Shown: in pieces, positions 383-15,783 of the stretch
How the letters are laid out: every line of letters begins with the position of its first letter
Numbering within the stretch: the stretch's first letter is position 1
DNA from: Eubacteriales bacterium
Lineage (GTDB): Bacteria > Bacillota > Clostridia > Christensenellales > CAG-138
DNA length: 18,002 nt
Reading direction: 5' to 3'
Assembly: GCA_030695285.1 (NCBI GenBank)
Contig: JAUYTF010000008.1
Coordinates: 1 to 18,002, forward strand
The notes under the pieces: generated by a model
Seen by the model: only the letters and a program-made list of their open reading frames with translations
The model's database searches: none
What the model was told of the DNA's origin: nothing
Position numbers and translations under genes: made by a program

Positions 383-517
383 ATGAGAAACGATAGCGCG
401 AAAGAGTGTATGCGCCCGCCGTTGTCTGAAGAGAAACACAAGAACCGCCTCAGGCAAGCACGACGACAAAAACAATACCGCCGCTATCAAGCGTGTGCGA
501 AGGAGTATGGAGCATGA
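383..517 (+). CDS. Possible small basic protein, 44 aa, overlapping protein A start
   Basis: An ATG at 383 opens a 44-codon frame that ends in TGA at 515-517. The stop shares the ATGA overlap with the ATG (514) of the large protein A, the classic arrangement for translational coupling. The product is very basic in its second half (many Arg, Lys and Gln) and has no membrane segment. Against it, there is no clear ribosome site before 383, the family is unknown, and protein A has its own good AAGGAG. If real, it could couple translation of A to the upstream small ORF. If not, the overlap is chance. Confidence 0.25.
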   Translation: MRNDSAKECMRPPLSEEKHKNRLRQARRQKQYRRYQACAKEYGA

Positions 518-2994
518 GTTTCAAAAGCGTCTACGGTTCTAAACTGGTCAGGAGCGCAGCCGCTTTCTTTCTATTGAGCGCCATGCTATTGCCCGAAGCT
601 GCCGTCGCACACGCCGAAAGCAGCACAGAGCCGCGAGAGTTGACCGCGCTGTGCAGCTTTACGCTGCCAGAGCGCTCCGCATCGTTTGAGCCGCGCCTGA
701 CGGACGCGCGCTACAACTCCCGCATTTCGTTTACCAAGGACGAGGCGCTCGTAGTCTCGCTGGCGAGCGGGGCAGCGGGGCTTTATATCGGCTGGTACGC
801 CGCGCCGGAATCGGCAGCGATAGAGGCGCTGGATGCTGCGGGGACGGTGCTTTCGAGCATTCCTGCAAACGCCGACCTGCTCAACGAGTATTTCGCGCTG
901 CCCTCGGCGTGTTCAAGCGTACGCGTCACGGGAGAAAAGGGATTCGCCGTCTCCGAGGTGCGCGTGTTTGACGCAGATACCCCTCCTGAGCAGCTCTGCA
1001 TCATGAAAGCGCAGCAGGCGCAGCCGAAGGCAATGCTCATCCTTGCGCACACGGCGGATGAATCGTATTATTTCGGCAGCCTGTTGCCGTATCTCTCGGG
1101 TTCAGACGCGGCGATGGTCTTCCTCTCCGTTGAAAGCAGGCAGGCACAGCAGGAGGCCATCGAAGCGCGGTATGCGCTGGGCTCGCGCACGCAGCCTGTA
1201 TTCGGCAGCTTCCCGTTTTACCGCAGCGCGATCGATATGAAACGGCTGTATAGCTATGTAGATAAATCCGATGTCAACAACTGGCTCATCCAGCTCATCC
1301 GCCGCTATCAGCCGGATACGCTGATCACCCACGCTGCAACGGGTCAGGATGGCATAGGCATGCATCAGCTCACTGCGACGCACGTGCTCCTCGTTTCGGA
1401 TCTGGCAGCCGACGAGTCCAAGGAGTACGTCAGCGAACGGGCATACGGCAGCTGGCAGGTCAGCGCGGTTTATCAGCAGCTGGAGACGGGCACAAACCCG
1501 CTTTACGATACACAGTCTCCGCTGGCGGCGTTTGGCGGGGAAAGCGCCATCTCCCTTTCGCAGGCGGCATATGATCGCTATTCGTCGCTACGGGTGACGC
1601 ATTTTTCCGTGACCGACACGCCGTATTTTGTCCAGACCTATCCGGCAGGGATCGAAACGACACAAGCGCAGAGCGCGAGCGACCTATTCGGGCTGCTCGT
1701 TTCGCTCGATGGCCCGTCCGCGGTGCCTGCCGCCGCCGTGACCCCCGCACCAAGCGCCTCGCCCGCGCCCCAGGAGACGAGCGAGCCAGAGGCCGCGCAG
1801 ACGCAGAGGGAGCAGGCGCTCTTTGCGGAACCAATCCAAGATGAAGCAGGTCAGGCGCGCTATCTGGGCGCAGGGCTTGTGCTCCTTGGCGTTCTTTGCG
1901 CCGTGTTCAGCCTTCTCGCGCTCAAGCGCGCAGAGGCAGCCAGAAAGCGCGTTCTTTGCATCGCTGGCATCCTATGCGGCGCGCTGCTGCTTGTGAGCGG
2001 CGCGTTTCTGTTGCTGCGTGCGGGCTTGGCGACGGTTGCGCCCGCACCCACGCCCAACGCTACGCCGTCCCCGACGGCGACCCAGCCCGCGCCGACGGCA
2101 ACCACCGAGGCAAGCGAGCCGGAGGCGGAGAAAACCAGCGAGGTTGCATCGCATTTCCGCAAGCAGAGCGACCCGGAAGAGGTCGTGGTGTTTGATCAGG
2201 AGAACGGCATCTACGAATATCGCAGCGACACGCTCGCCGTCGAAATACGCAGAGTGGAGCGAGACAATAAGCCGCTTGCGTACTATATTGCGCACATTTA
2301 TATGCGAGAATTCGACTCCTACCGCTCCGGCTTTGGCTCCGTGCGGATCAACGGCAGGGACACGGTAGATGCCTGCGTGATGGCGCGCCGCTATCGCGCC
2401 GTGCTTGGGGTGACGGGGGATAACCTGCTGCACTCCGACTACAACCGCGGTATGATGCTGCGCGACGGGCGAATCTTCCGCGCGCAGACGCAGGTGTCCG
2501 TCATGGCGCTGACGGAAGACCTCTCAATGCGCATCTACTACAAAAAAGACCCTGCCATGCTCAACGAGATTGAGGAGGGCACGCAGGATACCTATGCCTT
2601 CGGGCCACCGCTGGTGCTAAACGGCGTGGTCTGCGAAAACATCGATCAGGATCGCGTGGGGCGCATCAATCCGCGCGCCGGACTCGGTCTGGTCGAGCCG
2701 GGACACTTCGTTACCATCGTTGCAGACGGGCGGCTGCCGCATTACAGCCACGGGATGATGCTGTCCGATTTTGCACAGCTCTTTCTCGACGAGGGCTGTG
2801 TGATGGCCTATAATCTGGACGGAGGTGCTTCCGCAACCATGGTTTTCATGGGCGAATACATCAACAAGCGCGCGGAAAACCACTATCGCTCCGTGCCGGA
2901 TCAGTTGCTCTGGGGCTATTCCGAACTGGTTCCGACCGAGGATGAGCCGTATTTGATGCAGGGGCTTGTCCCGCAGGGCTGGCGCAAAGGCTAA
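514..2994 (+). CDS. Protein A: membrane-anchored discoidin-like / PIG-L-like / NAGPA phosphodiester glycosidase
   Basis: This is an 826-aa protein when started at ATG 514, where AAGGAG (500-505) is 8 nt upstream; an in-frame GTG at 493 is less likely. Residues 1-34 form a Sec signal peptide. Residues about 45-160 look like a discoidin (F5/8 type C) beta-sandwich, possibly glycan-binding. Residues about 172-315 resemble the PIG-L/LmbE deacetylase fold: AHTADE (178-183) matches the usual AHPDDE and GMHQLT carries the distal His. The Asp that acts as base in the family is Ala here. Membrane helices at about 450-470 and 479-501 with a basic loop are flanked by Pro/Thr/Ala linkers. Residues about 553-808 are a NAGPA/COG4632-type domain ending in YNLDGGASATM. 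Both large domains would face outside. A GT14 gene and a Wzy-like gene follow. The deacetylase activity is doubtful; the NAGPA call is firm. Confidence 0.85.
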   Translation: MSFKSVYGSKLVRSAAAFFLLSAMLLPEAAVAHAESSTEPRELTALCSFTLPERSASFEPRLTDARYNSRISFTKDEALVVSLASGAAGLYIGWYAAPESAAIEALDAAGTVLSSIPANADLLNEYFALPSACSSVRVTGEKGFAVSEVRVFDADTPPEQLCIMKAQQAQPKAMLILAHTADESYYFGSLLPYLSGSDAAMVFLSVESRQAQQEAIEARYALGSRTQPVFGSFPFYRSAIDMKRLYSYVDKSDVNNWLIQLIRRYQPDTLITHAATGQDGIGMHQLTATHVLLVSDLAADESKEYVSERAYGSWQVSAVYQQLETGTNPLYDTQSPLAAFGGESAISLSQAAYDRYSSLRVTHFSVTDTPYFVQTYPAGIETTQAQSASDLFGLLVSLDGPSAVPAAAVTPAPSASPAPQETSEPEAAQTQREQALFAEPIQDEAGQARYLGAGLVLLGVLCAVFSLLALKRAEAARKRVLCIAGILCGALLLVSGAFLLLRAGLATVAPAPTPNATPSPTATQPAPTATTEASEPEAEKTSEVASHFRKQSDPEEVVVFDQENGIYEYRSDTLAVEIRRVERDNKPLAYYIAHIYMREFDSYRSGFGSVRINGRDTVDACVMARRYRAVLGVTGDNLLHSDYNRGMMLRDGRIFRAQTQVSVMALTEDLSMRIYYKKDPAMLNEIEEGTQDTYAFGPPLVLNGVVCENIDQDRVGRINPRAGLGLVEPGHFVTIVADGRLPHYSHGMMLSDFAQLFLDEGCVMAYNLDGGASATMVFMGEYINKRAENHYRSVPDQLLWGYSELVPTEDEPYLMQGLVPQGWRKG

Positions 2995-3032
2995 AGACGT
3001 AGCGTACTGACAAACCCTAATTCTGATTTAAT

Positions 3033-3126
3033 GAGTATTCGAACTGACGAATTAACGATTTGATGCATGCGAGCATGGCGATTACTCGGGCTGACGAATT
3101 TGCGTTTTGATGCATACGAGTGAAAG
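3033..3126 (+). repeat. Tandem 47-bp repeat, two copies
   Basis: Copy one (3033-3079) and copy two (3080-3126) have an exact 47-bp period. The best conserved core is 3044-3073 against 3091-3120, identical at 26 of 30 positions, and begins CTGACGAATT and ends in GATGCAT-N-CGAG. Copy one also contains a small hairpin, ATTCG (3037-3041) with CGAAT (3048-3052). The second copy runs into the ribosome site of the next gene. The stretch is AT-richer than the genes around it. No terminator was seen between protein A and the glycosyltransferase, so the repeat probably lies within the message. Confidence 0.75.
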
Positions 3127-3136
3127 GATGAAGCGA

Positions 3137-4039
3137 ATGGAACACGCGAAACACCTGCAGCATGCTTATCTGATTACTGCGCACAGCAAAAAGGCGCAGC
3201 TGCTCAACCTGCTGCACCTGCTGGACGATCCAAAGAACGATATCTACATCCACATCGACAAAAAAGCGCAGGGGTTTGCGGAGGAAGAGATGACCGCCGC
3301 CGCGCCAAACGCCCGCGTGGCATTCGTGCCGCGGCAGGACGCGCGCTGGGGCAGCGAGGTGTTCATCGACGCGATCGTGTCGTTGATTTCGTTGGCCATA
3401 CAGGAGGAGCATGCGTTTTACCATCTGCTCTCCGGCGTTGATCTGCCGCTCAAGCCCCAGCGGGAGATTCGCGCGTTCTTTGATGCGCATGCTGGGCAGG
3501 AGTTTGTGTCCTTTGAGCGCGAGACGGCAAAGCCACATGTCATCGAGGGCAGGATCGGCCGCTGGCACTGGCGGCAGCCGAAAAATCCGCTGATCAGGAA
3601 GTTCGAGCGCAGGGCTGCTCCTGCGTTTGCCACGCTGCAGAAAGCATTCGGCGTCAACCGGCTCAAGCATGTGCCTGTTGCGTTCCAGAAAGGCGGTGTG
3701 TGGTTTTCCATCACGCATGCGCTGGCATGCTATGTGGTAGAGCACATGCCCGAGTACAGAGCGTATTATCGCAAGTCGTCCTGCGCGGATGAAATATGGC
3801 TGCAAACGCTGGTCGCCAACTCGCAGTTTATGAATCGCCGTGCGTTCATAGGTTGGGATGACGAGATGTCCGCCACCATGCGGTTTGTGGATTGGTCGGG
3901 CGGCGGCGCGTCCCCGCGCACGCTCACGGGCGCGGATTATGATATGCTTATGCAAAGTGGCATGCTCTTTGCTCGAAAGTTTGACGAGGCGGTGGATGCG
4001 GATGTGATCCGCCGCATCAGCGATAGCATTAGCGGCTGA
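3137..4039 (+). CDS. GT14 family glycosyltransferase (core-2/I-branching type)
   Basis: This is a 300-aa soluble protein when started at ATG 3137, which has AAAGGA (3123-3128) 8 nt upstream. In-frame starts at 3107 (TTG), 3110 and 3128 have poorer spacing. The N-terminus AYLITAHSK and the segment IYIHIDKKA match the first Rossmann strands of the core-2/I-branching family (PF02485). The segments RWGSEVFIDA and YHLLSGVDLPL match its conserved WG and LLSG.D.PL blocks. Eukaryotic members add beta-1,6-GlcNAc branches; bacterial members occur in capsule and exopolysaccharide clusters, with donors such as UDP-GlcNAc or UDP-xylose. It likely acts on the cytoplasmic face, extending or branching the polymer handled by the neighbouring Wzy-like protein. 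The actual donor cannot be read from sequence. Confidence 0.85.
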   Translation: MEHAKHLQHAYLITAHSKKAQLLNLLHLLDDPKNDIYIHIDKKAQGFAEEEMTAAAPNARVAFVPRQDARWGSEVFIDAIVSLISLAIQEEHAFYHLLSGVDLPLKPQREIRAFFDAHAGQEFVSFERETAKPHVIEGRIGRWHWRQPKNPLIRKFERRAAPAFATLQKAFGVNRLKHVPVAFQKGGVWFSITHALACYVVEHMPEYRAYYRKSSCADEIWLQTLVANSQFMNRRAFIGWDDEMSATMRFVDWSGGGASPRTLTGADYDMLMQSGMLFARKFDEAVDADVIRRISDSISG

Positions 4040-4095
4040 TCCGATCGATAGAGCGCGCTGAAAGAACCGAACATTTTTAAGTCAGGAATGCAATC

Positions 4096-5574
4096 ATGAA
4101 ACAGAAAGATCAAAACATAAAAAAAAGAACGGCTGCGCGCACGCTGCCGTTGCGGGACGGAGGCGTGTTTTCCTGGCGTTTTGTGGCGGTGCTATCGCTT
4201 ATGGGCTGCATCGCAATCGAGATTCTATTCAATCTGCTGCCCGTCGATCACGACACGCTGCTGCTCTTTTGGTTTTATCCGGCGTCCTTGTTGCTTGTTG
4301 CACAGCTCTACTTCAACCTGCGCTTCGCAAAGCATTTTGAGATCAAGCTGTTGCTGGCGTTTCTTGCGTGGTCTTGTACAACCGTGGTGTTGAATTTTCG
4401 GCGCGCACAGCTGGTCGATTCCTATGGGTGGTTTGCCAGCGCCTGCACAACGATCTTCCTCTGTTTCTCGCTTCCGTATGCGTTTACGAAAGACGGGGCA
4501 AAGCGCGTGATCACGCTGCTTGCAATCACAACGGTCGTATCGGTCACGCTGCTGAGCGTCTTGAGCCTGATCGCGGTTTATGCCACAGATATTGCGGCAA
4601 AAGTGCCGTCCGTCTTTGAAGGCATCGGCATAACAGCGGGAAGGCTCGGCATCGACACCCATCCCAACAGGAGCGCGACTGGGCTTGCAGCCGCGGTGAT
4701 TCTGGCCGGATATCTCATTGCGCAAACCAAGCAAGCGTGGCGGCGCATCGCTTGGGCGCTGTGCGGTGTGATTTGCTTTGTTCCGCTTGCGCTCACCGTT
4801 AGCCGGACGGCGATCATCGCAGCGGGGATCGGGGTTGGGTTCGAAGTCTTTCTGGCGCTGCAGGTCTCTTTGCAGGAGAAGATGCGCGCCGCACTGCGCT
4901 GGGTTTTGAGCACGCTGGCCGCTTGTCTCGTGATCGTTGCGCTCTATCAAGGCGCGACAATGGTCGGCCAGGCAAGCAATGATATGATCGCCCGTCTTGA
5001 GCCGGTTGCCATAGCGCAGGCACAGCAAAGCACGGATACGCAGGAAACAGAGGTGCCTGCCGCGCTAGAAAGCGGGGACTCCGTATTCGTCCCGCGGGAT
5101 TTATCCGACGCGGATAGCCTCAACGGCAGAACGGATATCTGGTTGGGCGTATGGAACGGGCTATTGGAAAATCCGAAAATTCTCGCGTTCGGTACTGGCC
5201 CGATGGTCGCGGGAGAGTTGATGATACCGTATTTTCCGGTCGGCTCACCGCTTGGACTGTTTCACAATTCGCTACTCGGCACGCTGGTGTCCTTTGGGGT
5301 TGTCGGCCTGCTGTTTGTGCTGGCGTTTCTCGTGCTCGTCGCGGTGTCTGCCTTCAAGCTCTCGTTTGGAAACTTAAAGAGCGCAGAGACGCTCGCCGTG
5401 CGGATGCTTCCCGCGATGCTACTCTTTGCGGTAGCGGAGGGTATGATGGAGGACTTCCTCTTTGCATACGGTTCGCTCAACATCGTCTGGATATGGTTGA
5501 TGATTGCGGCGGGGTTTGTGTTGCGCATGGGCAAGCAGGAGCCGGAGACGATAGAGGACGCCGCGAAACTTTAG
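4096..5574 (+). CDS. O-antigen ligase / Wzy-like polysaccharide polymerase
   Basis: This is a 492-aa polytopic membrane protein with about ten to twelve hydrophobic helices. ATG 4096 has AGGA (4084-4087) 8 nt upstream. The pattern fits the Wzy_C / O-antigen ligase superfamily (PF04932): a THPNRSATGL segment (189-198), LTVSRTAII before a helix (about 233-241), a large loop at about 290-385 carrying GRTDIW (344-349), and FHNSLLGTLVSFG after it. Loop Arg and HN residues are typical of these lipid-linked glycan polymerases or ligases. In a Gram-positive cell it would polymerise an envelope or exopolysaccharide, or attach it, on the outer membrane face. It lies 56 nt after the GT14 gene and before a strong terminator, so it ends the operon. 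Polymerase and ligase cannot be told apart by sequence. Confidence 0.85.
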   Translation: MKQKDQNIKKRTAARTLPLRDGGVFSWRFVAVLSLMGCIAIEILFNLLPVDHDTLLLFWFYPASLLLVAQLYFNLRFAKHFEIKLLLAFLAWSCTTVVLNFRRAQLVDSYGWFASACTTIFLCFSLPYAFTKDGAKRVITLLAITTVVSVTLLSVLSLIAVYATDIAAKVPSVFEGIGITAGRLGIDTHPNRSATGLAAAVILAGYLIAQTKQAWRRIAWALCGVICFVPLALTVSRTAIIAAGIGVGFEVFLALQVSLQEKMRAALRWVLSTLAACLVIVALYQGATMVGQASNDMIARLEPVAIAQAQQSTDTQETEVPAALESGDSVFVPRDLSDADSLNGRTDIWLGVWNGLLENPKILAFGTGPMVAGELMIPYFPVGSPLGLFHNSLLGTLVSFGVVGLLFVLAFLVLVAVSAFKLSFGNLKSAETLAVRMLPAMLLFAVAEGMMEDFLFAYGSLNIVWIWLMIAAGFVLRMGKQEPETIEDAAKL

Positions 5575-5637
5575 AACAAAGCCCATTATGAATGCATAAA
5601 CGGTACAGTACGCACGAAACCGTCTTCCTGCAACAAA

Positions 5638-5672
5638 GCCCGCGGCAATCGATCTGCCGCGGGCTCGTTTTT
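5638..5672 (+). terminator. Strong intrinsic terminator
   Basis: A perfect 10-bp stem, GCCCGCGGCA (5638-5647) with TGCCGCGGGC (5655-5664), closes a 7-nt loop and is followed by TCGTTTTT. It ends the Wzy-like operon. It also lies between that gene and the convergent capA-like gene and might slow transcription from the minus strand, where the T-run is poorer. Confidence 0.9.
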
Positions 5673-5689
5673 GCGTTGGAGGATGAAAA

Positions 5690-6988
5690 TCAGTTCACCC
5701 AGTCTGCGTCTTGCATGACAGGGATTGCTTCTGTCGTGCAGATTTCTATGACATACTCCCGTGCGGTCTGGGTGCGTTCGAGCTCCTTTTCGGTCAGCTC
5801 CGAATAGGAGCGGATCAAGGAGGTGTCTAAGAGCGCGGGCACGACCTGATGCACATACTTGCCATCGATGGACCGATAGAAGCACAAGAGCGGCATATAA
5901 GCGGCACTCTTGAGCGTGGTTGTGCCATCGAGCGCTTTTTCAACCGAAAGCTGCACGTAAAGACCGTATTTGAGCGGATCTACCTCTTTTTTACCGGACA
6001 TGTTGGAGATAAAATTACCCATGGAATACACGACTAGGCCAGTATAGGGCGCTCCGTCCCGCTCGACGGTGACGTATTCAATGCTCTGCACAACGTGCGG
6101 ATGAGACCCGAGAATGACATCCACGCCGGACTCCAGCAGCAGCACTGTCGATGCGCGCGTGCGCGAATTTGGCGCTTTCTTGTGCTCCTTGTCCCAGTGC
6201 GGATAGGCGACGATGAAGTCCGCGCCCGCCGCGCGTAGCGCCTTGACCTCTAAGACAAGCCGCTCCTGCTGCGAATACAGGCGGGTGACGGCATATTCGG
6301 TCTCTTCGTCGTTCATGTAACGGTCATGCTTGTTGATGATTTCGGTCGGCGCGATGAATCCGATTTTGACGCCTTTTACGTCGATGATCAGCGGCGTGTC
6401 GCGCTCCTCGTTCGAGCGAGCGGTGCCGGTGTGATAAATCCCCTTTTCGTCCAGCACATCTAGCGTGCGCAAAAGCCCGGGCATTTGCCGGTCGAGCGCG
6501 TGATTGTTACCGGTACTCAAAAAATCAAAACCGATGTCCTTGAGATTGTCGATCAGGACATCCGGCGCGTTGAAGGTGTCCGCCGGTTCGTCAGGGCGTT
6601 TCTTTACGGAGTAGCCGGCGTCTTTTCCGGCGAGCGTGGTTTCGAGATTTCCGCACATGAGATCGACCGAGCGGAACTCATTGGCAACGCCAAGGAAACT
6701 GCGCGAAAAATCATGTGTATCCGTCTCCTCCAGATACGCGCCGTTGATCTGCACCGCCATCATCATGATATCCCCGATCGCGCCGATGGTGACGACGGTC
6801 GGGGTTGGCTCCGGCGTCGGGGTCGGTTCCGGTGTGGGTGCCTCGGTGGGGCTCGGGACTATGCTGGTTGTTGGCGTGGCGGGCGGGGCTTCCGCGTTCT
6901 GCTGCTGCTGCTGCGTGCAGCCCGTCAGCGCGAAGCACAACAGCAGGAAAAGCGCGGCCAGAATTCCGAATAAGAGGCGTTTCTTCAT
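5690..6988 (-). CDS. CapA family lipoprotein (poly-gamma-glutamate capsule CapA-like metallophosphatase fold)
   Basis: This 432-aa protein begins at ATG 6988, with GGAG 6 nt upstream (6998-6995). It opens with a lipoprotein signal; the lipobox LTGC gives Cys24 for lipidation, so it would be anchored outside the membrane. Residues about 25-64 are Gln- and Pro/Thr/Glu-rich linker. The CapA fold (PF09587) follows: GAIGDIMM (69-76), GNLETTL (113-119), STGNNHALD (158-166), PHWDKE (263-268), GSHPHVVQSIE (294-304) and YSMGNFIS (321-328). These carry the Asp/His/Asn/Glu positions of the calcineurin-like metal site. CapA proteins are tied to poly-gamma-glutamate capsule anchoring, but many are merely envelope-associated. 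No capB, capC or pgs gene is visible, so an envelope polysaccharide role with its neighbours is as likely. It is transcribed divergently from protein B. Confidence 0.88.
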   Translation of the reverse strand: MKKRLLFGILAALFLLLCFALTGCTQQQQQNAEAPPATPTTSIVPSPTEAPTPEPTPTPEPTPTVVTIGAIGDIMMMAVQINGAYLEETDTHDFSRSFLGVANEFRSVDLMCGNLETTLAGKDAGYSVKKRPDEPADTFNAPDVLIDNLKDIGFDFLSTGNNHALDRQMPGLLRTLDVLDEKGIYHTGTARSNEERDTPLIIDVKGVKIGFIAPTEIINKHDRYMNDEETEYAVTRLYSQQERLVLEVKALRAAGADFIVAYPHWDKEHKKAPNSRTRASTVLLLESGVDVILGSHPHVVQSIEYVTVERDGAPYTGLVVYSMGNFISNMSGKKEVDPLKYGLYVQLSVEKALDGTTTLKSAAYMPLLCFYRSIDGKYVHQVVPALLDTSLIRSYSELTEKELERTQTAREYVIEICTTEAIPVMQDADWVN

Positions 6989-7078
6989 GTTGAACTCCGA
7001 TCATTGTCAAAAAAGGGGCAAAGTCAAAAAGAGCGGGGTGCGCGCGGTGCACGCATGGCTTTCTTAAGCCTTACTGGA

Positions 7079-7107
7079 ATTATAGTAAAAATCTCGGTGA
7101 AAAACAA
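7079..7107 (-). promoter_or_regulatory. Promoter of the capA-like gene
   Basis: Read on the minus strand, TTGTTT (7107-7102) is followed after 17 nt by a perfect TATAAT (7084-7079). Transcription would begin near 7072, giving a leader of about 84 nt before the ATG at 6988. Confidence 0.65.
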
Positions 7108-7143
7108 TCGCTGCACAAAACAAAGCGGGGAGGCGAGCGTTTT

Positions 7144-7170
7144 GCGCTAGGCAAGCGCAGAATACTGCGC
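7144..7170. promoter_or_regulatory. Two overlapping inverted repeats between divergent promoters
   Basis: GCGCT (7144-7148) pairs with AGCGC (7154-7158). Overlapping it, GCGCAG (7155-7160) pairs perfectly with CTGCGC (7165-7170) around AATA. The two hairpins share bases and exclude each other. The element lies between the capA-like promoter (7079-7107) and the protein B promoter (7246-7275). No T-run follows on either strand, so an operator or RNA switch is likelier than a terminator. Confidence 0.35.
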
Positions 7171-7193
7171 CTGAAAAAACACCGTTTATAAAA

Positions 7194-7231
7194 GTGCCGG
7201 ACATATGAATTTTAAATGAAAATGTGCCGGA
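7194..7231 (+). repeat. Direct repeat GTGCCGGA, 30-bp period
   Basis: GTGCCGGA occurs at 7194-7201 and again at 7224-7231, each preceded by an A-rich run. Three helical turns separate the copies, which suits a protein binding both on one DNA face. The pair ends 14 nt before the -35 box of protein B. Confidence 0.35.
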
Positions 7232-7245
7232 TGCGTACAAACGCT

Positions 7246-7275
7246 TTGACGAGACGGCATGGGTTTGTGTATACT
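7246..7275 (+). promoter_or_regulatory. Promoter of protein B, placing the transcript start at its ATG
   Basis: TTGACG (7246-7251) is followed after 18 nt by TATACT (7270-7275). The expected transcript start, about 7 nt on, falls at or next to the ATG at 7282. No ribosome site precedes that ATG. Confidence 0.6.
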
Positions 7276-7281
7276 GAAAAC

Positions 7282-9804
7282 ATGTTTACGATTTTAAGAA
7301 GAACGAAGTTTCAGAGCCGAATCTTAGCCGCAATCGCCGTTGTGCTGCTGCTGGGTTCGGGCGTTGTCCCGCTCTCCGGCGCGCGAGCGGAAGCGGCCGA
7401 TCTTCAGACCGGGCAGGCTGAAACGGTGACGCAGGATTGTACGATCACATTGCCCGAAGAACTTACGGGCAAGGAGTACCGCATCACAGACGGCCTTGTT
7501 GAGAGCTATCAAAACTTCAAGTCCGGGCAGACGATTCGAATCGATCTGCCGCAGGGTGCGCAGGGGCTGTATCTGGAGTGGTTCAATCCCGCGAGTCAGT
7601 ACACGGTGATCCAGTATGATCAGAGCGGAGCTGCTTTGTCCGAAGAGGCCGCATCGCCCTACCTTAACGCGTATTATCCGTTGCAAGCGGGGACGGCGCG
7701 GGTCAGCGTATCCTTTACCGGCAGCGCCTCGCTCTCCACGCTTGCCGTATACGGCGAGGGGGAACTGCCTGGGCATATGCAGCGCTGGAGCCTGCCGTCG
7801 CAGGCGGATCTGCTCGTCATCGCGTCAACCTCCAAAACCGCGTTGGATGAGTTCTTCGGCGTGATCGCGACGTATGCCTGCAATCACGATATCCCGACCG
7901 CGCTCGTGGTCATGTCCCGCAACACGCGCAGCGCACAGCAGGAGCTGCTCAGCGCGCTCTGGCACGCGGGTTACGATCAATATCCCTATTTCGGCGAATT
8001 CACGAGCGTGAACGACACGATCTACGGCATGGTGAAAAACGAATGGGGCAGAAAGCCGACGCTCACTTTTATCACAGACCGCATCGAGCAGTATCAGCCC
8101 AAGGTGATCGTCACGCATATCGACGACGAGAACGCGCCGGAAGGCACGGCGCAGTTAACGGGCGAATACACACTGCGCGCCGCGGAAGATGTCGATATAC
8201 AGAAGATCTATTTCGCATCCGCAAGCGGCGGCACGACGCTTTCCTACGACACGGCGCTCAACGGCTGCTTTGGCAAAACGGTTTTAGAGCTTGCTTCGGA
8301 GGCGCTAGCGCTTTGCGCCTCACGCCATGCGTATCAGAAAGCACTGATCCCGTCCTCCGTGTTTCTGCTCACCCAGAGCACGGTTGGGGAGGATGCGGCG
8401 GCAAACAACCTATTTGAAAACATCGATACCGCTTCGTTGGGCGGATATGTAGACCCGACACCGACGCCGGAACCGACGCCGGAGCCGACGCCGGAGCCAA
8501 CCGCTGAACCCGCGACAGAGTCCGCAGCGCCCTCCGCGGAGATTGGCGAACCCCTGGCGGATGCCCAGGAGCAGAGCGCGCCGCTGCTGACGGAGCGCGT
8601 AGCAACGCTGGTTTTACACATCGGCATCGCCGCAGCCGGAGGCTTGCTCTCGCTGCTGCTGCTTTTCACGTATGGTCTCAAGCGACGCCGGCGCAAGGTG
8701 CGCGGCGGCGCGGTCGTGCTTTCTTTGCTCCCGCTGCTGCTGGGCTTGCTTGCGTCCGGCGCGCTGAGCTATTTTAGCAAGAAACAGGTTGCGGAGGAAG
8801 CGCCCGTTGCAACGCCGGCGCCGACCGCGACGGCAACCATAGAGCCAACGCCCACGCCGGAGCTCACGCCGGAGCCGGAGCCGGAGCCGGAGGCGGAGCA
8901 GATCGCCGCTTCCGCCAGCGACGAATTCTACCGCCAGCCGAGCGATCCGGAAGAAGTGATACTCGTGGATGAAGAGAACGGCCGCTGGGAATACCGCACG
9001 GACACGCTCTCCATCATGATTGACCGTGTGGTCACGGATTATGTCAACAGAAGCGAAAGAACATTTCCGCTGGTCTATTTTGTCGCGCATATCCGCATGC
9101 GGGAAGTCGACCAGTTCCGCACGGTGCAGGCCGCGGACAACCGCAACGGAGCGGGCGCCATCAAACCTTGGGTACTCGCGCGGCGCAACAAAGCCGTGAT
9201 GATGATCACGGGGGACAATCTGACCGAGAGCGACACGCAATACAAGAGCATCCTGATTCGCGACGGCAAGGTGTTTTTAGACAGCGCAAAGAGCGATATC
9301 ATGGCGATGTATCCCGATATGACGCTGCGCATCTTCTCTCCAAAGCAGGTCAACGCATCTGATTTGCTCATGGACGGCGTGCGCGAGGCGTTTTCATTTG
9401 GGCCGACGATGATTCGCGACGGCCAGTTTACAACTGAAAACATCGATCACACGTCGCGCATCGGCAACGAGACAAATCCGCGCACCGGCATCGGCATGAT
9501 CGAACAAGGCCACTTTGTCGCAATCGTCGTGGACGGGCGGCAAAAGGATTATAGCTACGGCATGCTCCTCTCCGCGTTCGGTCAGCTCTTCGTCAAGGAA
9601 GGGTGTGTCGAGGCGTATAACCTCGACGGCGGCGTCTCCGCCTGCATGCTCTTCATGGGCGAGCAGCTCAACCGTCATGGCAACAAACGCGTCGGCACCG
9701 TCGAGGACACCTATCAGCGTAGAATACCGGACGGGCTCGTCTGGGGCTACTCGGACACGGTGCCGAGTGAAGACGACCCGATCTATCACCGCGGCGAAGG
9801 TTAA
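7282..9804 (+). CDS. Protein B: paralogue of protein A with a pseudo-PIG-L module and NAGPA domain
   Basis: This is an 840-aa protein if started at ATG 7282. An in-frame ATG at 7216 adds 22 residues, but the promoter lies inside that extension and the signal peptide sits best with 7282. The domain order equals protein A: signal peptide (about 1-38); discoidin-like module with a YRITDG start (about 66-165); PIG-L-like fold (about 174-305); PTPE-repeat linker; helices at about 442-462 and 477-497 around a KRRRRK loop; Pro/Glu-rich linker; NAGPA domain (about 565-820) with YNLDGGVSAC (779-788). The PIG-L metal motif is gone: the AHPDDE position reads ASTSKTALDE and the distal HPDH-like His is missing (GTAQLT). 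It is therefore likely a binding or structural module. The NAGPA domain keeps the same blocks as A, except Cys for Thr after NLDGG.S. It has its own promoter and terminator. Confidence 0.85.
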   Translation: MFTILRRTKFQSRILAAIAVVLLLGSGVVPLSGARAEAADLQTGQAETVTQDCTITLPEELTGKEYRITDGLVESYQNFKSGQTIRIDLPQGAQGLYLEWFNPASQYTVIQYDQSGAALSEEAASPYLNAYYPLQAGTARVSVSFTGSASLSTLAVYGEGELPGHMQRWSLPSQADLLVIASTSKTALDEFFGVIATYACNHDIPTALVVMSRNTRSAQQELLSALWHAGYDQYPYFGEFTSVNDTIYGMVKNEWGRKPTLTFITDRIEQYQPKVIVTHIDDENAPEGTAQLTGEYTLRAAEDVDIQKIYFASASGGTTLSYDTALNGCFGKTVLELASEALALCASRHAYQKALIPSSVFLLTQSTVGEDAAANNLFENIDTASLGGYVDPTPTPEPTPEPTPEPTAEPATESAAPSAEIGEPLADAQEQSAPLLTERVATLVLHIGIAAAGGLLSLLLLFTYGLKRRRRKVRGGAVVLSLLPLLLGLLASGALSYFSKKQVAEEAPVATPAPTATATIEPTPTPELTPEPEPEPEAEQIAASASDEFYRQPSDPEEVILVDEENGRWEYRTDTLSIMIDRVVTDYVNRSERTFPLVYFVAHIRMREVDQFRTVQAADNRNGAGAIKPWVLARRNKAVMMITGDNLTESDTQYKSILIRDGKVFLDSAKSDIMAMYPDMTLRIFSPKQVNASDLLMDGVREAFSFGPTMIRDGQFTTENIDHTSRIGNETNPRTGIGMIEQGHFVAIVVDGRQKDYSYGMLLSAFGQLFVKEGCVEAYNLDGGVSACMLFMGEQLNRHGNKRVGTVEDTYQRRIPDGLVWGYSDTVPSEDDPIYHRGEG
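8461..8496 (+). repeat. 12-bp tandem repeat coding PTPE in protein B linker
   Basis: Three 12-bp units of CCGACGCCGGA(A/G) run head to tail and encode Pro-Thr-Pro-Glu. They form the linker between the PIG-L-like fold and the first membrane helix. A second run of four CCGGAG hexamers at 8869-8892 codes Pro-Glu repeats in the linker after the second helix. Both are prone to slippage in multiples of three. Confidence 0.8.
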
Positions 9805-9851: not shown

Positions 9852-10210
9852 GCTTGTTCCGCTGTAGAGAAAAAGCGGGCAAGCAGGGAACGGGCTCGGT
9901 TGCCGGAGTTGGTGTGGGTGTTGGCGAAGGGGTCGCTTCGCTGTCATTTTGCGGAGATTTTCACCTCCATCTTGCGTAGGAAGGCGCAGAGGGCGTATAA
10001 TATGTCTGTAACAAATGGGCGAGCATAGTTGCCGGGGTCGCAACTCTCAGCGCTTGGCAAATACGGCTAAGATAGCAGTAGATTCAAGAGCGATGCGCGC
10101 ATTTGCTTGCGCTTTACCATCGGTTTGCAGCATAGTAGAGATGGAAACGGACAGGCTCTCTTTCCAGCTTGCAGCTACGGCGGGAAAACCATGATAGAAG
10201 GAAGTTTGCG
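9852..10210. other. Gene-free stretch between protein B and nagA
   Basis: This 359-nt stretch has no convincing gene. It holds the nagA promoter (9972-10001) and a long leader. The leader contains a hairpin, GTTGC (10028-10032) with GCAAC (10040-10044), and a perfect palindrome ATGCGCGCAT (10093-10102). On the minus strand 9898-9933 reads as an alternating Thr-Pro/Ser-Pro run like the linkers of A, B and the CapA-like protein, but without a start codon or domain. Confidence 0.5.
9972..10001 (+). promoter_or_regulatory. Candidate promoter of nagA
   Basis: TTGCGT (9972-9977) is followed after 18 nt by a perfect TATAAT (9996-10001). The transcript would start near 10008, leaving about 200 nt of leader before the nagA ATG. 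Confidence 0.55.
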
Positions 10211-11350
10211 ATGGTATTTGAAAACGCAATGGTGCTCGGCCCCGATTTCCGCTTTCACAAAGGCGGCTTCTCGGTGGAAAACGGCCACTTTTCGCGCGTG
10301 CTCGCCGTCAATAGCGGCGAGGGGATCGACCTTGGCGGCGCATATGTCGTGCCTGGGTTTATCGACGTGCATAACCACGGCAACTCCGGCAAGGATTTTT
10401 CGGACGGTGATGATGCGGGACTAAGAACCATTGCGCGGTATCTCGCAAAAAACGGAATCACCTCCTTTGCGCCCGCCTCCTTGACGCTACCGGAGGAGCA
10501 TCTGCGTGTGGCTTATGAATCAGCTGCACGCTTCGCAGAAGAAGCGCCCGCGGGCTGCGCCGTGCTGCGCGGGATTCACATGGAAGGCCCGTTTTTCTCG
10601 GACAAGAAGAAGGGCGCGCAAAATGGCGCATATTTGCAAAACCCGGACGATCAGATGTTCCTGCGGCTCAACGCAGCGGCGCGGGGTTTGATCAAGATTG
10701 CGGATGTCGCACCGGAACTGCCGGGCGCCATCGAATACATTGAGAACGTCAGCAAGATCTGCAGGGTCTCGATTGCACATACGGACGCGAACTATGAGCA
10801 GGCTAAAGCTGCGATTCAGGCGGGAGCGAGTTACGTCACACATCTTTATAATGCCATGCCACCCTTTCTTCACCGTGCGCCCGGCGTGGTCGGCGCAGCG
10901 GCGGAGTCTCCGTCTGTGCTGGCCGAGCTGATTTGCGACGGGGAGCACGTGCACGAGAGCGTCGTTCGAGCAACGCTCGCCATGTTTGGCGCGGATCGTT
11001 TATGCCTCGTGAGCGATGCGCTCTCCTGCTGCGGCATGCCGTGCGGCGAATACATGCTCGGCGGGCAGAAGATCGTGCTCGACGGCACGGTGGCGCGGCT
11101 TGCGGACGCGCCGGATACGCTGGCTGGCTCGGCGAACAACCTCTTTGGCATCTTCCGCCTTGCGCTGTCCTTCGGCATCCCTGCTGAGGACGCGGTGCGC
11201 ATGGCGAGCGAAACGCCGGCCCGCGCGCTGGAGGTGGAGGGCGAGGTCGGCTCCATCGACAACGGCAAGCGCGCGGACTTCCTCGTGCTCAACGCGGACT
11301 ACTCGCTCAACCGCGTCTTTCTTGCGGGCAGCGAAATCGTGAAGAACTGA
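10211..11350 (+). CDS. nagA: N-acetylglucosamine-6-phosphate deacetylase
   Basis: This cytoplasmic amidohydrolase converts GlcNAc-6-phosphate to glucosamine-6-phosphate and acetate. The 380-aa length is normal for NagA. ATG 10211 was chosen because AAGGA (10198-10202) is 8 nt upstream; a TTG at 10169 would add 14 unlikely residues. Visible motifs are the metal HxH in PGFIDVHNHG (H54, H56), the bridging Glu in GIHMEGPFFS (E125), His190 in SIAHTDANY, THLYNAMPP with H211, and the catalytic Asp in LVSDALS (D269), with LAGSANNLFG near the C-terminus. The HxH form is like Bacillus-type enzymes. The block after D269 (CCGMPCGEY) has extra Cys where other members have none. nagB follows after 172 nt, so the pair channels GlcNAc-6P to fructose-6-phosphate. 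No nagE-type transporter or kinase is present in the window. Confidence 0.93.
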   Translation: MVFENAMVLGPDFRFHKGGFSVENGHFSRVLAVNSGEGIDLGGAYVVPGFIDVHNHGNSGKDFSDGDDAGLRTIARYLAKNGITSFAPASLTLPEEHLRVAYESAARFAEEAPAGCAVLRGIHMEGPFFSDKKKGAQNGAYLQNPDDQMFLRLNAAARGLIKIADVAPELPGAIEYIENVSKICRVSIAHTDANYEQAKAAIQAGASYVTHLYNAMPPFLHRAPGVVGAAAESPSVLAELICDGEHVHESVVRATLAMFGADRLCLVSDALSCCGMPCGEYMLGGQKIVLDGTVARLADAPDTLAGSANNLFGIFRLALSFGIPAEDAVRMASETPARALEVEGEVGSIDNGKRADFLVLNADYSLNRVFLAGSEIVKN

Positions 11351-11522: not shown

Positions 11523-12257
11523 ATGAACATCATCGTAACTAAGAATTTCGAGCAGACATGTGAACGCGCGGCATGTATGATCGCAGACGTGATCCGCCAA
11601 AAGCCGGACGCGCGATTGGGCCTCGCCACAGGCAGCACCGCGCAAGGCGTTTACCCCCATCTCGTGAAAGCGAACAGGGTGGGCAAGCTCAATTTTTCGC
11701 GCGTGAGCACCATCAACCTCGACGAATACGTGGGCCTCGCGCCGGATCATCCGCAGAGTTACCGCCGCTTTATGGACGAAAACCTCTTTGACCAAGTCAA
11801 TATCGACAAAAGCAACACGATGGTCGCCAAGGGCACGGGGGATATCGAAGAAAACGTGCGCGCGTTTCGCGAGGCGCTTGCCGAAAAGCCCATTGACGTG
11901 CAGCTGCTGGGTATCGGCGTGGATGGCCACGTGGGCTTCAACGAGCCGGGCGAGGTGCTCTACGACGGCGCGCATGTCGCGGAGCTGGACGAGAGCACCA
12001 TCGACGCGAACGCACGCTTTTTTGCCACGCGAGACGGGGTGCCCACCAGAGCCCTCTCTATGGGCATGGGCGACATCCTCCGCGCAAAAAAGCTGATTCT
12101 GCTCGCGACGGGCGAGAGCAAGGCTGCTGCGATGAAGGGACTGCTGCTCAACGAGGAGCTGGACGTGCAAAACCCCGCGACACTGGTCAAGATGCATCCC
12201 GACGTGACGGTGATCATCGACCGCGCGCTGGCGGAGGATATCGGGTATTGCGGGTAA
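11523..12257 (+). CDS. nagB: Glucosamine-6-phosphate deaminase
   Basis: This enzyme isomerises and deaminates glucosamine-6-phosphate to fructose-6-phosphate and ammonia, the step after NagA. It is 244 aa, the short Gram-positive form that lacks the C-terminal extension of the E. coli enzyme. AAGGA lies before ATG 11523 at normal distance. Family motifs are GLATGSTAQGVY (33-44, phosphate-binding loop), NLDEYVGL (65-72, with general base Asp67), and GIGVDGHVGFNEP, which carries Asp134, His136 and Glu141. It is a soluble cytoplasmic protein. A terminator follows the gene. Confidence 0.95.
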   Translation: MNIIVTKNFEQTCERAACMIADVIRQKPDARLGLATGSTAQGVYPHLVKANRVGKLNFSRVSTINLDEYVGLAPDHPQSYRRFMDENLFDQVNIDKSNTMVAKGTGDIEENVRAFREALAEKPIDVQLLGIGVDGHVGFNEPGEVLYDGAHVAELDESTIDANARFFATRDGVPTRALSMGMGDILRAKKLILLATGESKAAAMKGLLLNEELDVQNPATLVKMHPDVTVIIDRALAEDIGYCG

Positions 12258-12350: not shown

Positions 12351-12926
12351 TTACATCGACCAGATCTTGGGGCTGGAGGCGGAGACGGCGAGCGCGCCCG
12401 CCTGAAGCGCTGCGATGACGTCCTCTTTTTCGTGAATGAACCCGCCTGCGATGATGGGAGCGGTGATGCGGTCTTTCAGCTGCGCAATCACCTTTGGCAA
12501 TAGCCCCGGCAAAATCTCTACAAAGTCGGGCTTGCTCTGCGAAATCTGCTGCTCGAAGCTATTGAGCGAGCGGGAATCGAGCATAAACCCGCGCTGCACC
12601 GCCGCGAGCCCCAGCTGCTTGGCCCGCTTGATGAGCGCACCGCGCGTGCTGATGATGCCCTCGGCTCCGGTCACTCTCTGAATCGCGTCCACGGCGATCT
12701 CCTTGCTGGAAAACCCCTCGATGAGATCGAGATGGATCACGCAGAGCTTGCCGCTCTCGTGTACGCGGCGGGTGAGATCGCCGATGTCGAGCAGATTCCC
12801 CATGAGCAGGAAGACCACGCGGCAGTCGGAATCAAGCGCGAGGAGTAGCTCCTCCTCGTTGCCGACTGCCGCGATGACCGGGTTATTTTGAAGCTGCTCA
12901 AGCAGCTGCTGTGCGCCATGTTCCAA
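12351..12926 (-). CDS. glpP: GlpP-family glycerol-3-phosphate-responsive antiterminator
   Basis: The family (PF04309) is an RNA-binding TIM-barrel protein. In Bacillus subtilis GlpP, with glycerol-3-phosphate bound, prevents termination in glp leader transcripts. Visible signatures are NPVIAAVGNEEEL near the N-terminus, VFLLMGNLLDIGDL, VIHLDLIEGFSSKE, GIISTRGALIKRAKQLGL, RGFMLDSRSL, PDFVEILPGLLPKVI and IIAGGFIHEKEDV. A TTG at 12926 gives 191 aa, the usual family length, with GGAAAGGCAGG upstream and a fitting promoter at 12957-12985. A TTG at 12989 would add 21 residues and overlap that promoter. No glpF, glpK or glpD is in the window. The divergent dehydrogenase/malic enzyme operon has a leader with a terminator-like hairpin, so it is a possible target. 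That link is inference, and the ligand may differ from glycerol-3-phosphate. Confidence 0.85.
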   Translation of the reverse strand: MEHGAQQLLEQLQNNPVIAAVGNEEELLLALDSDCRVVFLLMGNLLDIGDLTRRVHESGKLCVIHLDLIEGFSSKEIAVDAIQRVTGAEGIISTRGALIKRAKQLGLAAVQRGFMLDSRSLNSFEQQISQSKPDFVEILPGLLPKVIAQLKDRITAPIIAGGFIHEKEDVIAALQAGALAVSASSPKIWSM

Positions 12927-12956
12927 AGCAAAAGACCTGCCTTTCCATTTGATATA

Positions 12957-12985
12957 AGCATAGTGAACTTCGCCAAAAAGCGCAA
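12957..12985 (-). promoter_or_regulatory. Candidate promoter of the glpP-like gene
   Basis: On the minus strand TTGCGC (12985-12980) is followed after 17 nt by TATGCT (12962-12957). The transcript would begin near 12950, about 25 nt before the TTG start at 12926. This supports the shorter reading of the gene. Confidence 0.4.
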
Positions 12986-13025
12986 GCAAACTACGGAAAA
13001 ATCGCAGTAAAATCTAAAATGAAGT

Positions 13026-13238: not shown

Positions 13239-14351
13239 ATGGCAGAGACCAGACCGTATATCCCTTGGGACATGATTCAAGGCTTTATGATCGACACATT
13301 TGTGGCCTACGGCATACCGCTGGAGGACGCGAAAATCTGCACGGACGTACTGCTGGAAAGCGACCGCCGCGGCATCGAAAGCCACGGCTGCAACCGCTTT
13401 AAACCCATCTATCTCGACCGCATCGAGCAGGGTATTCTCTATCCCGTCACCGAATACGAAGTCGTGAGAGAGACGCCGACCACGCTCGTGGTGGACGCGC
13501 ACGACGGCATGGGCATGGTCGCAAGCTACAAGGCGATGAAGACCATCATCGAGAAGGCGAAGAAAAACGGCATGGCAATGGCCGCCATTCGCAACAGCTC
13601 GCACTACGGCATCGCGGGCTACTGGACCAGCATGGCGGTGGGCGAAGGCATGATCGGCATCTCCGGTACCAACGCGCGTCCCAGCATCGCGCCGACCTTC
13701 GGCGTGGAAAACATGCTCGGCACCAACCCGCTCACCTTCGGTCTGCCGACGGATGAGGACTTCCCCTTTACGCTGGACTGCGCGACGAGCATCAGCCAGC
13801 GCGGCAAGATCGAATACTACGCCCGTACCGGCCAAGACACACCCGCGGGTATGGTCATCGGCCGCGACGGTAGCGCCATGACGGACAGCAAAGCAATCCT
13901 CAAAGGCCTCACCGACGGCAGCGCGGCGCTAGCTCCCTTGGGCGGCATCGGCGAAGACCTCGCGGGCTACAAAGGCTACGGCTATGCAACGGTGGTGGAG
14001 ATTCTCTCCGCGGCGCTGCAGGCGGGGAGCTTTCTCAAGATGTGCATCGACCGTGACGAAAACGGCAACAAGAAACCGTATCAACTGGGGCATTTCTTCA
14101 TCGTTATCGATCCCGAAGCGTTCTGCGGGCTTGAGACGTTCAAAAAGATCGCGGGGGACATCCTGCGTGAGCTGCGTGCTTCGGAAAAAACGCCGGGACA
14201 GGAGCGCATCTACACCGCGGGCGAAAAAGAGCACGACGTATGGCTGGAGCTCAAGGACAAAGGTGTTCCCGTCGGCGAAGCGGTGCAAAAGGAGTTCATG
14301 TCCATCCGCGATAAAAAGAATCTCCCGTATAAATTCCCGTTTGAGCAGTAA
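13239..14351 (+). CDS. Ldh_2-family malate/L-lactate dehydrogenase
   Basis: This is a 370-aa NAD(P)-dependent oxidoreductase of the malate/L-lactate dehydrogenase type (PF02615), a fold distinct from classical Rossmann LDH/MDH. ATG 13239 has a full AGGAGG (13223-13228) 10 nt upstream. Motifs are DRRGIESHGCNR (catalytic His in SHG), IRNSSHYGIAGYW, GTNPLTFGLPT, FTLDCATS and GYKGYGYATVVEILS. Family members act on malate, lactate, ureidoglycolate or related 2-hydroxyacids. The malic enzyme 36 nt downstream makes malate or lactate the best guess, since that enzyme yields pyruvate. It is soluble and cytoplasmic. It is the first gene of a two-gene operon with the promoter and leader hairpin noted upstream. 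The exact substrate cannot be settled from sequence. Confidence 0.88.
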   Translation: MAETRPYIPWDMIQGFMIDTFVAYGIPLEDAKICTDVLLESDRRGIESHGCNRFKPIYLDRIEQGILYPVTEYEVVRETPTTLVVDAHDGMGMVASYKAMKTIIEKAKKNGMAMAAIRNSSHYGIAGYWTSMAVGEGMIGISGTNARPSIAPTFGVENMLGTNPLTFGLPTDEDFPFTLDCATSISQRGKIEYYARTGQDTPAGMVIGRDGSAMTDSKAILKGLTDGSAALAPLGGIGEDLAGYKGYGYATVVEILSAALQAGSFLKMCIDRDENGNKKPYQLGHFFIVIDPEAFCGLETFKKIAGDILRELRASEKTPGQERIYTAGEKEHDVWLELKDKGVPVGEAVQKEFMSIRDKKNLPYKFPFEQ

Positions 14352-14387
14352 CGCGTTGATCAGCGAAGCAATAAGGAGAGAATAACA

Positions 14388-15563: not shown

Positions 15564-15586
15564 GCGCAAATCGCGAAACACAAATG

Positions 15587-15630
15587 AGGCGACGGCTGTA
15601 AGCTTTGGCGGACGGTTGTCGCCTTCTTTC
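15587..15630 (+). terminator. Probable terminator after malic enzyme
   Basis: AGGCGAC (15587-15593) pairs with GTCGCCT (15618-15624), followed by TCTTTC. The 24-nt loop and interrupted T tract make it a modest candidate, but it stands at the end of the operon and before a new promoter. Confidence 0.45.
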
Positions 15631-15670
15631 GCGGCGCTCAGCAACGGTAAAAAAGAATTCGGCGCGAAAG

Positions 15671-15699
15671 ATGACAAACGCCGGAATAACCGATATAAT
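15671..15699 (+). promoter_or_regulatory. Promoter of the diguanylate cyclase gene
   Basis: ATGACA (15671-15676) is followed after 17 nt by a perfect TATAAT (15694-15699). The transcript would start near 15706, with an A-rich leader of about 78 nt. Confidence 0.65.
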
Positions 15700-15783
15700 T
15701 CAGACTAGCATTCAAAAAAACAAACACAATAAACCAATCTATTTATTTTCTCCAAACGCTGATCAAGAGAAGGGCGGGTTACC

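Follow-up and report, generated by a model that had tools for sequence, protein, structure and literature searches.

What two large proteins of similar build, each combining a deacetylase-like with a phosphodiester glycosidase-like domain, could do at the bacterial surface is the question raised by an 18,002-nucleotide stretch from a Eubacteriales bacterium (contig JAUYTF010000008.1 of GenBank assembly GCA_030695285.1). This stretch, hereafter the window, comprises an entire contig (C500) of an assembly of 2.54 Mb in 515 contigs. The genes of the two proteins, A (514-2994, + strand) and B (7282-9804, + strand), are separated by 4.3 kb. A preliminary description made from the sequence had regarded the products as paralogs that join two working enzymes, PIG-L and NAGPA, in a surface machine acting on a glycan linked through N-acetylglucosamine (GlcNAc)-1-phosphate. 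It was found here that neither protein retains an unbroken PIG-L active site and that the core motif of the NAGPA domain is conserved.

A and B were found to share one domain order, in which a signal peptide is followed by a beta-sandwich resembling carbohydrate-binding module family 32 (CBM32) or discoidin, a PIG-L fold, a linker, a two-helix hairpin, a second linker and the NAGPA domain. The corresponding features are as follows.

514..2994, + strand: protein A (826 aa from ATG 514; Pfam; structure model; 64 homologs including A itself)
514..615, + strand: putative signal peptide of A, approximate (hydropathy; helix 10-25 of the model)
628..975, + strand: CBM32/discoidin-like beta-sandwich of A (aa 39-154; model)
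1006..1713, + strand: PIG-L/LmbE-fold domain of A (aa 165-400; model)
1045..1062, + strand: broken HXDD motif of A, AHTADE, with the catalytic Asp replaced by Ala (alignment columns; motif roles from the available part of PMC4101496)
1843..2028, + strand: predicted two-helix membrane hairpin of A with basic loop (aa 444-505; model and hydropathy)
2146..2934, + strand: NAGPA (PF09992) domain of A (aa 545-807)
7282..9804, + strand: protein B (840 aa from ATG 7282; Pfam; structure model; 128 homologs)
7417..7764, + strand: CBM32/discoidin-like beta-sandwich of B (aa 46-161; model)
7798..8433, + strand: PIG-L-fold domain of B, without metal site (aa 173-384)
8584..8790, + strand: predicted two-helix membrane hairpin of B (aa 435-503; model and hydropathy)
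8905..9765, + strand: NAGPA domain of B (aa 542-828)

The structure models had pLDDT (predicted local distance difference test) values of 86.1 for A and 85.6 for B, and matches in the PDB backed the sandwich, PIG-L and NAGPA folds in both. The domain order given in the preliminary description was thus borne out, as was its assignment of the middle region to PIG-L. The PF09992 profile scored 90.5 bits for A and 94.3 bits for B against a curated cut-off of 25. The PIG-L fold was present in both models despite failing the PF02585 cut-off of 28.2 (A reached 21.3 bits and B gave no match), and the sandwich, present in both models, had no Pfam match at E ≤1. The predicted hairpin consists of two adjacent hydrophobic helices connected by a basic loop, placed after the signal peptide in each protein (models and hydropathy). 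The charge of this loop exceeded that of both flanks in 79 of the 80 homologs with exactly two mid-protein hydrophobic segments, a count that left out 61 homologs with at least three such segments and 11 with none or one. Both large domains are therefore predicted to lie outside the cell, with the basic loop between the two helices, which agrees with the topology proposed previously.

In LmbE-like deacetylases, the active-site motif was described as HXD1D2 plus a further H, in which D1 acts as general base; roles were assigned to His13, Asp15, Asp16, Tyr142, His144 and His147 of MshB, and replacement of His144 by Ala left ≤1% of the activity (PMC4101496, in its available part). In the alignment columns, A presents H-T-A-D and the last His, so that all three positions of the metal ligands (His, Asp and His) remain and both D1 and the His144 equivalent are gone, while all metal ligands and D1 are lost in B. 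At the D1 position A has Ala, and the 38 aligned A-type relatives have Ala, Ser or Gly; several of these also carry Met or Tyr in place of the first His. An alignment of 185 sequences comprised A, B and 183 proteins from two homolog searches, in which scoring was limited to the candidates with the most words in common; one of them contributed the best 120 of 128. A class of 144 sequences, A and B included, displayed the NAGPA motif together with one or more hydrophobic segments in mid-protein; the combination of His13, Asp15, Asp16 and His147 was found in none of the 144, and neither were equivalents of Tyr142 or His144. All four essential residues were retained in 21 of the 31 sequences classed as other; the ten that did not retain them included P0062, P0063, P0064, P0065 and P0067, long fusions whose NAGPA motif is altered. 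A third class consisted of 10 sequences without a mid-protein segment; here the four residues were intact in P0092, P0093 and P0095, which are fusions without a transmembrane segment, and in P0109, listed with a PIG-L but no NAGPA domain. Matches of an HXDD regular expression in many B-type proteins were discarded as candidates for a surviving site, the match in B being HxDDE at the second motif and not at the metal site. On these sequence grounds, the PIG-L domain is judged catalytically dead in A and in B. The proposal that the two proteins join two working enzymes was rejected from the alignment columns, A being without the base and the substrate His and B without the metal site, and with the active site broken in both, neither protein is likely to carry out deacetylation itself.

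The NAGPA domain presented the opposite picture. Conservation was assessed in those sequences of more than 700 aa that have a residue at the site, 157 in all, among them A, B, the three fusions lacking a transmembrane segment and the leucine-rich repeat (LRR) protein P0115. In the numbering of A, Asp636 and Gly770 were found in all 157, Arg721, His731 and Asn767 in 156, Asp769 in 151 and Asp738 in 143; the six exceptions at Asp769 were P0115 and the five long fusions named above. The conserved residues PR, GH, DGR, NLDGG and S are all present in A and B, and NAGPA is the only likely active enzyme of the two proteins. As a separate observation, the five long fusions, in which the NLDGG aspartate is changed as well, may be double pseudoenzymes. 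NAGPA-family proteins occurred in 21 of the 22 related genomes examined, and a large expansion was noted in G008, G019, G021 and G033, with 13, 12, 9 and 9 matches, respectively.

In a direct BLASTP comparison, the match between A and B was confined to the NAGPA region (44% over 289 aa), and the sequence blocks that had been quoted as evidence of paralogy sit in that region or just ahead of it. Of 10 comparisons of A and B with orthologs, 9 showed a relation at 30-34% that spanned nearly the entire length; in the remaining one (L038), A and the B ortholog aligned over residues 452-817 only. Because these comparisons extend over almost the full length, A and B are whole-length paralogs, as had been proposed, with an N-terminal half that evolves fast. 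Among A and 13 orthologs, mean pairwise identity was 0.77 for NAGPA, 0.58 for PIG-L, 0.57 for the sandwich, 0.35-0.37 for the linkers and 0.32 for the hairpin; among B and 14 B-type proteins it was 0.74 for NAGPA, 0.54 for both PIG-L and the sandwich, and 0.36-0.44 for linkers and hairpin. The identity of the PIG-L domain stands well above that of the linkers, and the dead domain thus seems to be kept under constraint.

The two domains were also encountered apart. In L019, which belongs to a different family of the order, separate neighbouring genes on one strand encode an intact PIG-L, an NAGPA and a PGA_cap protein (in L019:104-3942 the NAGPA product looked lipoprotein-like by eye). The row formed by these three genes suggests a place for the CapA-like protein in the same pathway. 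Two hairpin fusions with an intact PIG-L motif, both above the PIG-L and NAGPA Pfam cut-offs, were found in two other genera (L016, L072), and L025 is a likely third, cut by the contig end. The reverse situation was noted for the solo PIG-L at L072:4785-6179, which is dead and adjoins the hairpin fusion with the intact motif. Because of the unfused neighbours of L019 and the intact hairpin fusions of L016 and L072, PIG-L and NAGPA are regarded, from gene arrangement, as coupled beyond A and B themselves. Neighbours were counted in 22 genomes picked from 61 searched, after one row had been dropped from 40, the second of a G050 pair that represents a single frame in pieces. In 10 of 29 hits to long-frame PIG-L the frame was shared with NAGPA; 8 of the other 19 had a NAGPA match in another frame within ≤5 kb, counted whether solo or inside a fusion, where 0.77 would be expected under uniform placement. 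None of the 10 short-frame hits had one within that distance (one was cut by a contig end). A membrane helix with a basic tail was present at the C-terminus of 5 of 7 solo PIG-L relatives, and a hydrophobic segment near the N-terminus in all 13 solo NAGPA open reading frames (ORFs), where by eye about 10 resembled signal anchors and 3 signal or lipoprotein peptides. We infer that the family arose from a membrane PIG-L deacetylase with a C-terminal anchor paired with an NAGPA enzyme with an N-terminal anchor; end-to-end joining of the two would have generated the hairpin.

Dead and intact PIG-L genes frequently coexisted. A table of PIG-L ORFs, with loci taken from the hits, comprised 65 rows from 21 of the 22 genomes; A and B were excluded, the solo protein of G013 was entered twice, and the cut A of G001 was counted as solo. 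Of the 33 fusion rows, 2 had all four essential residues, compared with 25 of the 32 solo rows. One or more dead fusions were present in 15 genomes, 11 of which also carried a fully intact sandwich PIG-L. In G002, G003, G004, G006 and G007 the intact solo PIG-L sits immediately upstream of a third paralog, C, itself a dead fusion, and in G019 one lies upstream of a different dead fusion. The counterparts in the window's own genome are a solo PIG-L with intact motif (contig C37) and a cut fusion (contig C17). Such coexistence is only suggestive because intact PIG-L genes are common in the family; a PIG-L match above cut-off was found in 14 of the 22 genomes. In a sample of 297 genomes from the order, 20 matched B at E 1e-40 or better, many via NAGPA alone, and the listed near-full-length frames were all within the window's own family except for G050, whose match spans two separate genes of L019. 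No full-length relative was found on plasmids, none of the 7 plasmid records with a match covering 80%.

The history of fusion and loss was approached through separate trees of the two domains. In a PIG-L tree of 83 rows, from which the active-site columns were excluded, most dead domains, including those of A, B and C, formed one clade of 42 rows with a Shimodaira-Hasegawa-like approximate likelihood ratio test (SH-aLRT) value of 100. L016, L025 and L072:2449-4881 fell apart from it, and the broken-motif fusions L104:1745-4078 and L074:3292-5340 stood outside it on long branches. In later runs 6 and then 7 rows were dropped, the latter two fusions among them, and after 7 had been removed 38 chosen dead rows formed a clade (SH-aLRT 99). 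Holding these 38 together with the three intact hairpin rows was rejected by the approximately unbiased (AU) test (p 3.9e-5; p 2.6e-10 in the run with the dead solo row L072:4785-6179 outside the held group), the held group having been named only after the PIG-L tree had been seen. In the NAGPA tree of 80 rows, dead and intact hairpin fusions formed one clade (47 rows, SH-aLRT 95), which was recovered, unstarred, with 41 of 69 rows and a value of 93 after 11 long or uncertain rows had been dropped; a clade of the dead hairpin fusions alone was not rejected (p 0.67). A repeated independent origin of the hairpin fusion, to which the PIG-L tree and the AU tests pointed, is contradicted by the NAGPA tree, which is most simply explained by a single fusion and a later loss of catalysis. 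Long-branch effects or an exchange of the PIG-L part are possible reasons for the disagreement. Because the two domain trees disagree, our claim is limited to the existence of both intact and dead hairpin fusions.

The genes around A and B provide the glycan context.

3107..4039, + strand: Core-2/I-branching glycosyltransferase, which we take to be of the glycosyltransferase family 14 (GT14) type (PF02485 1.3e-18; between A and B in 5/5 relatives)
4096..5574, + strand: Wzy_C (O-antigen ligase/polymerase-like) membrane protein (PF04932 1e-10; in 3/5 relatives)
5690..6988, - strand: PGA_cap (CapA-like) putative lipoprotein (PF09587 1.7e-60; 5/5 relatives; lipoprotein call by eye)
10169..11350, + strand: NagA, GlcNAc-6-phosphate deacetylase (TIGR00221 270.6 bits, above cut-off; after B in 4/5 relatives)
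11523..12257, + strand: NagB-like glucosamine-6-phosphate deaminase (TIGR00502 221.3 bits, slightly below the cut-off of 236.9; PRK00443 family; 4/5 relatives)
12351-12989, - strand: glycerol-3-phosphate responsive antiterminator, GlpP-like (PF04309 7.1e-61; beside NagB)

Seven genomes of the same genus were searched for this locus, and five were retained because a full-length A was present (G001, with A cut by the contig end, and G004, with no close A, were left out). The order A, GT14 gene, PGA_cap and B was identical in all five, the Wzy_C gene was found in three, and NagA adjoining B, together with NagB, in four. The GlpP-like gene, within the fetched stretch in three of the five, may hint at glycerol-phosphate chemistry. 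LRR_4 proteins were observed beside A or B in a scan restricted to these stretches, within the locus at L036:8309-9802, L037:10372-11865 and L040:6445-7980 and adjoining the B relative at L050:8137-9837; no leucine-rich-repeat gene was seen among the larger ORFs of the window. P0115 and P0116 carry LRR Pfam domains together with PIG-L or NAGPA. Downstream of the glycan locus (13239-17775), a malate/lactate dehydrogenase, a malic enzyme and a Cache-PAS-GGDEF protein are encoded.

The reading that we favour, to which we would give an even chance, is that A and B are membrane-tethered phosphodiester glycosidases acting on a GlcNAc-1-phosphate-type surface glycan, with the dead PIG-L domain kept for binding. 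The proteins would be anchored at the surface by the hairpin, and the C-terminal NAGPA domain would cleave, outside the cell, GlcNAc-1-phosphate-type (sugar-1-phosphate diester) groups of the glycan, while the sandwich and the dead PIG-L domain would bind the glycan or a partner. Catalysis by PIG-L would have been lost in the clade of A and B, and any deacetylation would probably be performed by a separately encoded, intact surface PIG-L, here that of contig C37. The released GlcNAc would be taken up, phosphorylated and salvaged via NagA and NagB. Of the surface machine first proposed, the link to surface GlcNAc is thus upheld by the GT14, Wzy_C, CapA-like, NagA and NagB genes, and the deacetylase activity of A and B is not. 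Because the genome supplies the PIG-L partner chemistry, a candidate set for glycan assembly (GT14, Wzy_C and CapA-like) and the NagA/NagB salvage route, the substrate hypothesis is directly testable.

Several points weigh against this reading. Glyphos_transf (PF04464), sought as a sign of a teichoic-acid-type polymer, was not found in the genome and no maker of a GlcNAc-1-phosphate polymer was identified there; a search for Stealth gave no match in any control genome and hence has no bearing on this point. Two LytR-CpsA-Psr proteins were found. NagA and NagB are housekeeping genes whose position beside B may be due to chance, and in the fetched stretch of the relative L039 neither comes after B. 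The NAGPA domain is called intact on the strength of conservation, and catalysis by NAGPA domains of this kind is presumed; the N-terminal motif of the domain is TGDN in A and B and NTDY in P0092, P0093 and P0095. The dead PIG-L domain could be decaying ballast instead of a binding module. In four of the 15 genomes with dead fusions no fully intact sandwich PIG-L was found. Two of these, G001 and G005, are incomplete genomes (73% and 59%, respectively), the sole PIG-L in G012 belongs to a different type, and G013 presents HEDYHH, with Glu for Asp. Finally, the PIG-L and NAGPA trees conflict, so that a history of one fusion and one loss is tentative.

The nearest alternative concerns the substrate: in the same proteins, NAGPA might cleave another phosphodiester-linked sugar, a glycerol-phosphate group or cell-wall material, the sugar not being GlcNAc. 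This possibility deserves to be taken seriously, since few assigned substrates of bacterial PF09992 members were found in the open-access literature, and none for NAGPA proteins of this kind; the glycerol-3-phosphate antiterminator next to NagB and the D-Ala-D-Ala carboxypeptidase gene upstream of A in L036 also speak for it. It is opposed by the position of NagA and NagB beside B in four of five relatives and by the membership of the PIG-L relatives paired or fused with NAGPA in a family of mainly GlcNAc deacetylases (the available part of PMC4101496). Rather doubtful is a two-protein surface system of membrane-hairpin phosphodiester glycosidases in uncultured Clostridia in which the dead deacetylase, as a receptor or docking module, couples deacetylation with phosphodiester cleavage of a single surface polymer, the amino sugar set free being salvaged by NagA and NagB; as part of that same doubtful proposal, the dead domain would dock a de-N-acetylated or GlcNAc-1-phosphate glycan, or the separate active PIG-L.

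Two further explanations make opposite assumptions about catalysis. The loss of PIG-L catalysis shows that the architecture can work without one of its enzymes, and in P0062, P0063, P0064, P0065 and P0067 the NLDGG aspartate is changed too, which would suit a whole protein, NAGPA included, that serves as non-catalytic receptor or assembly factor for a GT14 and Wzy_C glycan machine. This is improbable, given that the NAGPA motifs are retained in A, B and nearly all relatives examined and that constraint on this domain is far above that on the others. Conversely, A and B might be bifunctional, their PIG-L domains deacetylating via other residues, in line with the three metal-ligand positions retained in A, the well-kept fold and the two hairpin relatives of other genera with intact motifs. 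Such activity is very unlikely: the general base is replaced in A and in its 38 A-type relatives, several of which have also lost the first His, the Tyr142 and His144 equivalents are missing, B is without any ligand, and the ≤1% activity of the MshB His144Ala variant (available part of PMC4101496) argues in the same direction.

No paper joining PIG-L/LmbE with NAGPA (PF02585 with PF09992), and none treating PIG-L as a pseudoenzyme, was found in the open-access literature, which agrees with the earlier statement that the architecture has no described function. With catalysis lost in one domain, the other strictly conserved and relatives with the intact domain in neighbouring genera, the family offers a natural experiment in the conversion of an enzyme domain into a surface-binding module.

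Compared with LmbE-like/PIG-L deacetylases (MshB, BshB and diacetylchitobiose deacetylase; PF02585), A has neither the general base nor the substrate histidine and falls under the Pfam cut-off, and B lacks every metal ligand and has no Pfam match. The sandwich matches the fold of CBM32-like and, presumably, CBM47-like lectin modules, without a sequence-family hit. Vertebrate NAGPA, the mannose-6-phosphate uncovering enzyme, and the DUF2233 protein 3ohg belong to the same PF09992 family, but A and B are only 15-18% identical to them in structural alignments, are bacterial, and carry in addition a sandwich, a dead PIG-L domain and a hairpin; the human enzyme was described with an action on UDP-GlcNAc (PMC12024695, available part). 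Also comparable are the ShfP-like proteins, calcineurin-like surface phosphoesterases in which NAGPA and discoidin-like, FN3 or SLH domains are joined to the enzyme (PMC11188070), and the two-enzyme proteins combining prok-TelC with NAGPA (PMC12419801). Like A and B, these combine a bacterial surface NAGPA with another enzyme and binding domains, but the partner there is calcineurin-like or a lipocone and not PIG-L, and no dead partner or hairpin is noted in the available parts of the two papers. No described function was found for the cluster in the open-access literature. The architecture of A and B is best filed as a variant of these known surface glycan-processing enzymes.

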